From assembly GCA_020852965.1 (NCBI GenBank), contig JADYZV010000153.1, forward strand, positions 1-32,664: a stretch of 32,664 nucleotides of DNA, in the 5' to 3' direction. The notes beneath the pieces are model-generated. The model did no database searches. It saw only the letters and a list, made by a program, of their open reading frames with translations, and was not told the DNA's origin. The translations under genes and the position numbers were made by a program. This DNA comes from Pirellulaceae bacterium (GTDB lineage Bacteria; Planctomycetota; Planctomycetia; Pirellulales; Pirellulaceae). This document shows positions 3,528-5,851 of the stretch, in pieces. Each line of letters begins with the position of its first letter. Position 1 is the stretch's first letter.

Positions 3528-3785
3528 ATGAATACAACCAGCTTTCTAGATCGAATGCTTGAACCCGTAACCGGTTCAATGTCTCGCGAACTCGCGGAGC
3601 TTTTGGTCGCCCTTAAAGCGGACCAAGGATTGCAGACTCGCATAGAGTATTTGCGCGGCAAGGCCAATCAGGGGACTCTCTCAGATGAAGAGGACGCTGA
3701 GTATAAAGATTTCATCGAAGCCCTAGATGTAATCTCGATACTTCAATCAAAGGCAAGGCAGGTTCTCATTCGTCAGGCAAGTTGA
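3528..3785 (+). CDS. Small acidic helical protein paired with HNH endonuclease
   Basis: An 85-residue, charged, probably all-helical protein with the pattern LAELLVALKADQGLQTRIEY followed by LRGKANQGTLSDEEDAEYKD and a C-terminal ILQSKARQVL. I know this type as a short gene lying directly before a small HNH nuclease gene in cyanobacteria, planctomycetes and others; no function is established to my knowledge. Here the stop is 2 bp before the ATG of the HNH gene, so the two are translationally coupled. The tight pairing of a small protein with a nuclease suggests a toxin-antitoxin-like or regulatory partner role, but this is inference. The EEDAEY segment resembles the acidic helix seen in many copies. 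Confidence 0.75.
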   Translation: MNTTSFLDRMLEPVTGSMSRELAELLVALKADQGLQTRIEYLRGKANQGTLSDEEDAEYKDFIEALDVISILQSKARQVLIRQAS

Positions 3786-3787
3786 GA

Positions 3788-4189
3788 ATGGAAGTTGCCC
3801 TTCGTGAACACATTAGGCAGCGTGCTCGATTTCGCTGTGAGTATTGCCTTTTGCCCGAAGCCGCTACACCATTTACGCCATTTCATGTCGAGCACATCAT
3901 CGCCAAACAGCACCTGATCGATGATTCGATCGATAACCTTGCTTTGGCATGTGACCGGTGCAACGCGTTCAAAGGCCCTAACCTATCCAGCGTAGATCCG
4001 GTCACTTTGGAAATCGTAAACTTGTTCAGCCCGCGACGCGACGTTTGGGACAATCACTATTTGTTCCAGGGATCGGTAGTAATAGGCACTACGCCAAAAG
4101 GCAGAGCAACGGTTCAGCTATTGCAGATGAATGCAGCTCGACGACTCGAGTTGCGAGAATCGTGGCTTGCATCCGGAGGCCAGTTTTGA
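3788..4189 (+). CDS. HNH endonuclease
   Basis: A 133-residue single-domain HNH nuclease. The zinc knuckle pairs are C17-x2-C20 (CEYC) and C55-x2-C58 (CDRC), flanking the catalytic HVEHI motif (H33, E35, H36) and the conserved N50 of NLALAC. It would bind a divalent metal and nick or cut double-stranded DNA. The ATG at 3788 follows the previous stop by 2 bp; a TTG at 3782 could add two residues. It converges on the retron RT gene (67 bp between stops). HNH proteins act as effectors in some retron and Septu-type defence systems, but opposite orientation and its own small partner argue that this pair is a separate module. Target specificity is unknown. Confidence 0.88.
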   Translation: MEVALREHIRQRARFRCEYCLLPEAATPFTPFHVEHIIAKQHLIDDSIDNLALACDRCNAFKGPNLSSVDPVTLEIVNLFSPRRDVWDNHYLFQGSVVIGTTPKGRATVQLLQMNAARRLELRESWLASGGQF

Positions 4190-5631: not shown

Positions 5632-5812
5632 GCTAGCGGGCGTTCCCAACCGGTCCGAGTGTGGGCACGAGCCATATTGCGTCGGTAGACGCAAGGTTGC
5701 TCGTGCAATCAGTGCCTGGCTAAGTAAATTGCGCGAGGTAACCTCGCGCAGAACATTTGGCAACTGCGAAAACGCCGTTACGCAAACGTCGAACTTGGTC
5801 CGGCCCGCTAGC
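5632..5812 (-). ncRNA. Retron msr-msd noncoding RNA
   Basis: About 181 nt, read on the minus strand from 5812 to 5632. The ends are a perfect 10-bp inverted repeat, GCTAGCGGGC (5803-5812) and GCCCGCTAGC (5632-5641), in the position of a1/a2. Next comes an msr-like region with two hairpins: AAC-G-GCG-UUUU-CGC-A-GUU (5779-5762) and a perfect 9-bp stem UGCGCGAGG-UUA-CCUCGCGCA (5750-5730). UUU/UUA loops on msr stems are a hallmark recognised by retron RTs. Then an msd-like 42-nt hairpin, 5706-5665: outer stem GCACGAGC/GCUCGUGC (8 bp), a symmetric 4x4 internal loop, inner stem UUGCGUC/GACGCAA (7 bp), loop UACC. A candidate promoter is placed so that transcription starts next to a1, and the RT gene follows in the same direction. 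The branching G and exact msr/msd border cannot be set from sequence alone. Confidence 0.87.
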
Positions 5813-5822
5813 GAGTCCATTT

Positions 5823-5851
5823 ATCATGACGATAATATGATCCAGTGTCAA
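5823..5851 (-). promoter_or_regulatory. Sigma70-type promoter of the retron
   Basis: On the minus strand a perfect -35 TTGACA (5851-5846) is followed after 17 bp by CATGAT (5828-5823; 4 of 6 matches to TATAAT). The expected start point is about 5813-5816, immediately before the a1 repeat at 5812, as expected for a retron transcript beginning at a1. Confidence 0.65.

Follow-up and report, generated by a model that had tools for sequence, protein, structure and literature searches.

The stretch of DNA analysed in this study (referred to as the window) comprises 32,664 nucleotides of contig JADYZV010000153.1 from a Pirellulaceae bacterium (assembly GCA_020852965.1), and contains a gene for a retron-type reverse transcriptase (RT) preceded by a structured RNA. 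The order on the minus strand was a promoter-like site, the structured RNA (5812-5632), a gap of 70 nt, and the RT gene (5561-4257). The initial annotation, made from the letters of the window, had described promoter, RNA, and RT in this same-strand order as a complete retron locus. All of the features that it named were found on the minus strand: a TTGACA/17/CATGAT promoter, a perfect 10-bp a1/a2 repeat 161 bp apart, two msr-type hairpins (with UUUU and UUA loops), and a 42-nt msd-type hairpin (Table 1).

Table 1. Positions of the putative retron-type unit and of adjacent features in the window (MFE, minimum free energy; HNH, nuclease motif).
Feature	Position	Strand	Basis or remark
Promoter-like site TTGACA-17-CATGAT	5823..5851	-	10/12 consensus matches; spacing 17 nt
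Hexamers of the promoter-like site	TTGACA 5851-5846; CATGAT 5828-5823	-	
msr-msd type non-coding RNA, 181 nt	5632..5812	-	covariance-model match at 5806-5638; sole match listed in its genome
a1 arm GCTAGCGGGC	5803..5812	-	covarying helix in relatives
CCAA, inward extension of the a1 stem, pairing with UUGG (5649-5646)	5795..5798	-	pairing kept in relatives
Candidate priming (branch) guanosine, first base past the a1 stem, within AGU	5794..5794	-	role proposed from known retrons (PMC6868368, in excerpt)
Variable hairpin P1, UUUU loop, msr part	5753..5789	-	MFE fold
Hairpin P2, GG-UUA-CC	5730..5750	-	most conserved element; 99.7% of cells paired
Probable msd template region, at most 80 nt	5650..5729	-	suggested by its location, flanked by P2 and the a2 stem
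msd-type hairpin P3, 42 nt, 8 + 7 pairs	5665..5706	-	MFE fold and covariation
a2 arm GCCCGCTAGC	5632..5641	-	perfect 10-bp repeat with a1, 161 nt apart
Retron-type RT, 434 aa	4257..5561	-	RT core at about 143-434, YADD at 309
Two-gene set convergent to the RT: 85-aa open reading frame (ORF) without a family, and HNH nuclease gene	3528-4189	+	
HNH nuclease gene	3782-4189	+	weak PtuB (E 4e-12) and IscB similarity; 67 bp from the RT, convergent

The pairing of CCAA with UUGG was kept in all five of the nearest rows and in 49 of 49 family rows (alignment columns 9-12). This pairing prolonged the a1/a2 stem inward, and thereby placed G5794 at the end of the stem. A hairpin was also found at the position of P1 in the folds of relatives, with no conservation of the P1 sequence, and in P3, six of 15 pairs showed two-sided changes when the five nearest loci were compared. 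The MFE of the window RNA was -93.8, compared with -63.7 ± 4.9 in 100 shuffles (z -6.1). Perfect 10-bp repeats at a spacing of 120-200 nt occurred 10 times in the window (partly overlapping), with a mean of 3.3 and a maximum of 13 in 100 dinucleotide shuffles; since this is within the range of the shuffles, the a1/a2 repeat taken alone was rejected as evidence. The promoter taken alone was likewise rejected because the number of such sites in the window was at chance level (three found and 2.3 expected). The pattern TTGAC[A/G]-17-CAT[G/C]AT, with equal spacing, preceded the RNA in the two Rhodopirellula loci L044 and L045, and was not present before the RNA of L002 (sequences read by eye). A TATAAT-like hexamer (5/6 matches), located 24 to 8 nt before a1, was detected in 13 of 80 loci and in one of 80 in a control stretch.

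A covariance model was built from a seed alignment of 49 RNAs, from which the window and its four nearest kin (L002, L044, L045, and L046) were excluded. The initial annotation had named two checks of its reading, conserved structured sequence upstream of homologous RTs and compensatory changes in the a1/a2, UUA, and msd stems, and both were found. Nineteen of the 27 consensus pairs were changed on both sides, with 93.0% of cells paired; the covariation score was 0.549, compared with 0.186 ± 0.010 for 500 shuffles; sliding the partners gave no more than 0.124. The five nearest loci alone gave a score of 0.282 (0.122 ± 0.026 in the control), computed with omission of the outer a1/a2 helix, which was badly aligned there. 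The model gave a single match (E ≤ 10) in the 32.7-kb window, with 51.7 bits and an E-value of 1.5e-10; owing to a short calibration, the E-values are rough. Matches at E ≤ 0.01 were obtained in 78 of 80 named RT loci, corresponding to 43/43 seeds and 35/37 non-seeds, and 77 of these 78 RNAs were upstream of the RT on its own strand. The remaining RNA (L090:5761-5921, minus strand, 55 bits), from a Solirubrobacterales metagenome-assembled genome, was located just before the RT on the opposite strand, for which an inversion or an assembly fault could be responsible. No match at E 1 was obtained in other RT clades, L013-L016 and L133-L140 being examples of the loci scanned; among seven RT loci of greater distance (L218-L224), no E-value was below 0.3. 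When the RNA was searched for first, across 294 genomes from the phylum, 20 matches (the window included) came from 19 genomes, and an RT of the same clade was located downstream on the same strand in 19 of the 20; since L141 is probably the same place as the seed locus L051, this test was not fully independent. The RNA is thus more than a chance structure, as indicated by a fold far below the shuffles, a covariance match with the window left out of the model, and a recurring promoter pattern. As a separate observation, L026:1700-1859 (minus strand) contained a 105-bit RNA followed at once by a remnant that matched RT residues 366-433 only, the pattern that a deletion of most of the RT would leave.

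In 48 of 77 loci, the distance from the end of the RNA to the chosen start codon was 13-40 nt, which would suit a structured 5' leader that regulates RT translation without itself being copied. However, the gap between the RNA and the RT start (median of 29 nt) ranged from -17 to 325 nt among the 77 loci, in which RT starts were chosen by rule, and neither a closed a1/a2 stem nor an msd-like hairpin is needed for a leader. Together with the inverted RNA of L090 and with one genome in which the RNA is away from the RT, these points made a leader extremely unlikely. In that genome (G322), an intact family RNA was found on contig C35 (L153/L161; L161 at about 5633-5781) with no RT within 1.5 kb, and the RT on contig C78 (L177) had no recognisable RNA in about 1.2 kb upstream; the two may act in trans.

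The priming guanosine of retrons is part of a conserved AGC that sits at the inner end of the a1 stem or next to it (PMC6868368, in excerpt). A G directly after the a1 stem was present in 27 of 28 loci that were aligned to the model without selecting for G, the exception being L057, by its alignment; AGC was found in 14 of these 28, in an alignment that leans to the model. Another 66 loci were chosen with a pattern demanding AG, so that the third base alone is informative: C in 41, T in 12, A in 11, and G in two. Thus, a conserved G, in many loci as AGC and in the window as AGU, was found at the inner end of a1, as in known retrons. G5794 sits opposite G5650, and if G5794 is the priming G, the template region would be limited to 80 nt or less.

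RVT_1 was the only family found in a Pfam scan of the RT. All of the 14 solved sequences matching it were retron RTs, with Ec86 first and with two entries under generic names. The AlphaFold2 model (window and 39 relatives) had a mean predicted local distance difference test score (pLDDT) of 90.6, and the first 18 solved matches in a structure search with this model were all retron RTs. The fold was like that of the Retron-Eco1 (Ec86) RT, with a template modelling (TM) score of 0.83 by target length and 25% identity in the structural alignment. The YADD core was found in 39 of 40 rows. On the other hand, about residues 1-110 formed an extra helical N-terminal part (pLDDT of 83 when modelled alone), for which neither a Pfam family (11 weak matches, each in one of 40 members) nor a solved fold at E 0.001 (best E 3.1) was found. 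An N-terminal extension of the RT and an AGC-type priming motif, as observed here, are also known in the myxobacterial retrons Mx162, Mx65, and Sa163 (PMC6868368, in excerpt). In a phylogenetic tree, the RNA-bearing RTs formed a single clade of 84 rows, 81 of which were labelled with RNA, with a branch support of 91; this was a quick tree, drawn open, with L060, L068, and L104 left out beforehand.

The window unit and the typed retrons (I-XIII), including Retron-Eco1, share YADD, an msr-msd RNA upstream of the RT that is closed by a1/a2, the inner-a1 G, and an msd hairpin. In contrast to typed retrons, the clade of the window had no linked effector that could be found, contained the extra N-terminal part, had another RNA sequence, and mostly lacked the N of NAXXH as well as VTG. 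The best-matching protein models for the window RT in PADLOC were not those of a typed clade, but RT_other (PDLC02949; 383 bits) and RT_outgroup (PDLC03740; 370 bits), followed by RT_XIII (312 bits), and six other members of the clade scored 399-547 bits with RT_other; the RT clade was therefore already known to PADLOC. No non-coding RNA tied to RT_other or RT_outgroup was found in the resources searched, which did not include the non-coding RNA models of PADLOC itself (PMC9252829, in excerpt). Rfam gave no match at the gathering score for the window and 11 relatives; permissive scans revealed none in two relatives and two far sub-threshold matches in the window. No such RNA was named for planctomycetes in the titles and abstract starts of the literature searched, a scope outside which Mestre 2020 and the 2024 retron census fell; within this scope, the remark of the initial annotation that retron RNAs from this phylum have received little description is compatible with the literature.

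Assignment to type XIII was rejected on the basis of the PADLOC scores and the tree: the clade of the window formed a branch separate from the PADLOC type XIII RT group and had a short msd. The scores of two loci illustrate this separation, with 547 (RT_other) and 325 bits (RT_XIII) for L127, and 298 and 515 bits, respectively, for L137. Nothing was found by the RNA model at the type XIII-like loci L133, L134, and L137. All three loci encoded an RT of the PADLOC type XIII group, preceded by a long hairpin (by eye), and their genomes also held members of the clade of the window (Pseudoduganella, Rhodopirellula rubra, and Pyxidicoccus, respectively); thus, L137, with its type XIII-like RT and long upstream hairpin, and the clade member L127 come from one and the same Pyxidicoccus genome. 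L137 may be Mx162-like, judging from its long hairpin and motifs.

Neighbouring genes were compared in a search for an effector. No protein family besides the RT was common to the neighbourhoods of 14 loci, in which the remaining clusters consisted of frames antisense to the RT, or of a distant gene present in three loci. The search was extended to 88 loci (flanks of up to 6 kb, several contigs being short; ORFs of at least 80 aa; blastp at E 1e-8, by which remote kin would be missed). The RT cluster contained 74 loci, and an antisense frame was picked in six more; the next cluster comprised seven loci, none within 600 bp. The sole always-adjacent family was a hydrophobic, membrane-like protein of about 255-304 aa, directly downstream in four of the 88 loci. 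In the window, the HNH gene was rejected as a defence partner because it is convergent, on the opposite strand, and in no shared neighbour cluster. Neither the 14 nor the 88 loci thus revealed a linked effector, and the N-terminal part, which might be a fused one, had no known family or solved fold. Retron effectors differ by clade, so that this may still be an ordinary tripartite defence retron whose effector is unlinked, specific to a subclade, or was missed by the neighbour search. The hydrophobic protein, which was also downstream in seven of 13 loci (L162-L174) of another planctomycete family (f21), and the PtuB-like HNH gene in the window are in line with such a missed effector. However, no non-RT family was within 600 bp in more than four of the 88 loci, and the position of the HNH gene argues against its participation; a missed effector was considered possible but doubtful. 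As regards f21 itself, an effector was rejected because the downstream proteins belong to unrelated families (B in seven of the 13 loci and Q in three).

As anatomy, the retron reading stands: conserved upstream RNA and compensatory stem changes both support it. Of the initial annotation's "complete retron locus", the RNA and RT anatomy held, and completeness as a tripartite defence system did not, with no effector linked. We propose that the locus is a putative retron-type unit of two parts only, RNA and RT, with multicopy single-stranded DNA (msDNA) as its product, and assign a probability of roughly 0.86 to this reading. Since an RT of a typed clade and a linked effector were both not found, it was classed as a putative broad-sense retron, and not as a typed tripartite one.

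Several observations weigh against this reading. In the RNA of the window, CGGAC/GUUCG rivals CCAA/UUGG in the MFE fold, and AGU occupies the presumed priming site, where AGC was found in 41/66 and 14/28 relatives. No model match was obtained at L009, at L060 (where the upstream DNA on the contig is 125 nt), and at L096; L106, L112, and L073 gave partial matches, and L085 was borderline (E 0.0097). Matches in one planctomycete family (f43) were weak or partial. One sampled RNA (L153) had no RT within 1.5 kb, and one (L090) was inverted. In the RT, the N of NAXXH (region X) is missing from the window (SCAEPH) and was present in two of 40 relatives' rows, with the H in 40/40, and VTG (start of region Y) was found in nine of 40 rows, the window having ILG; each motif is present in 14 of 16 validated retrons (PMC6868368, in excerpt). 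Mx65 and Ec48 likewise lack the N (same source), and NAXXH is therefore typical and not defining; VTG is also typical, not defining, for retrons. Among the deviating loci, L096 carries the P2 hairpin in spite of lacking a model match, and a P2-like hairpin of at least eight pairs was found near the RT in nine of 11 f43 loci examined (L207-L217).

The absence of VTG and of the N of NAXXH in most members, the position outside the typed retron models, and the lack of a linked effector family may also suggest that the RNA is the template of another RT system, of the type of defence-associated RTs (DRT) or diversity-generating retroelements (DGR), with other priming (for example, by protein) and a product that is not branched msDNA. 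DRT2 also gave a weak NCBIfam match, far below the threshold (32 bits; cut-off, 390). However, fold and sequence of the RT were nearest to retron RTs, the first DRT2 chain ranking 26th in the structure search, and the combination of an a1/a2 stem, an inner-end G, and a hairpin ahead of a2 is the plan of retrons. A DRT- or DGR-type system was therefore regarded as very unlikely.

The retron-type unit was found in a broad range of bacteria. The genome of the window had one copy of the RT. A first genome scan with this single protein revealed no relative, and an alignment was required; some RT match was found in 30 of 60 related genomes (the window's own included), about a dozen being close. When named genomes were scanned with an alignment of 13 RTs, at least 581 relatives were found; the best 80 were kept, and these spanned Planctomycetota, Acidobacteriota, Pseudomonadota, Myxococcota, Actinomycetota, Verrucomicrobiota, and Gemmatimonadota (by title and taxonomy). 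Using a profile of 40 RT sequences at E 1e-60, the RT was detected in 15/16 genomes of f43, 97/120 of f21, and 27/119 of the window's own family (f1). With a best match above 400 bits, a cut meant to exclude RTs of greater distance, at whose loci no RNA was obtained, the numbers were 12/16, 87/120, and 20/119, respectively; f43 scores lower, with 14/16 above 390 bits. The unit is near-core in the two other planctomycete families (f21 and f43), and sporadic in that of the window. In f21, it occurred in one conserved gene order at L162, L163, L167, L168, and L170, and in another at L165, L166, and L172, and these shared orders speak for vertical descent. Among L162-L174, the unit was syntenic within groups of loci, one of these groups having a topoisomerase I-like gene next to the unit; a MutL-like gene was near the unit in L078/L114 (both genes named by eye). 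One genome (G172) has two RNA-RT units of the clade (L155, L160; L169, L174). A phage origin was rejected, the best 80 of 122 viral-contig relatives being at most 36% identical, as was a plasmid origin: among 47 matching records, the best were 41-46% identical (three Burkholderia replicons and one Tsukamurella plasmid).

In the proposed mechanism, one transcript would start just before a1 and run into the RT gene. The RT would bind the RNA, probably via the GG-NNN-CC hairpin, prime from the 2'-OH of G5794 (a role assigned by analogy with known retrons), and copy the msd region. The product would be a branched RNA-DNA whose DNA, about 65-80 nt long, folds as a hairpin. Since no linked effector was found within the reach of the neighbour search, the particle would use a protein encoded elsewhere or the N-terminal helical part of the RT itself. 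The RT-msDNA particle may most likely be a sensor of phage or DNA stress. As guesses on its role, defence with an unlinked or built-in effector has an even chance, a resident host function is somewhat less probable, and a neutral or selfish unit is rather unlikely. A more far-reaching proposal, made only tentatively, is that of a large and old effector-free retron clade with its own RNA family in at least seven phyla, near-core in two planctomycete families, which would make msDNA for a resident cellular function with the N-terminal helical part as an output module.

To our knowledge, retrons have hardly been studied in planctomycetes, acidobacteria, and actinobacteria. The present analysis assigned an RNA to RTs that PADLOC files as "other" or "outgroup", and the covariance model finds more of them. 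Compact RNAs with distinct RTs may be raw material for the production of single-stranded DNA in cells. If true, the existence of effector-free, near-core retrons would reopen the question of the role of msDNA without an attached toxin.
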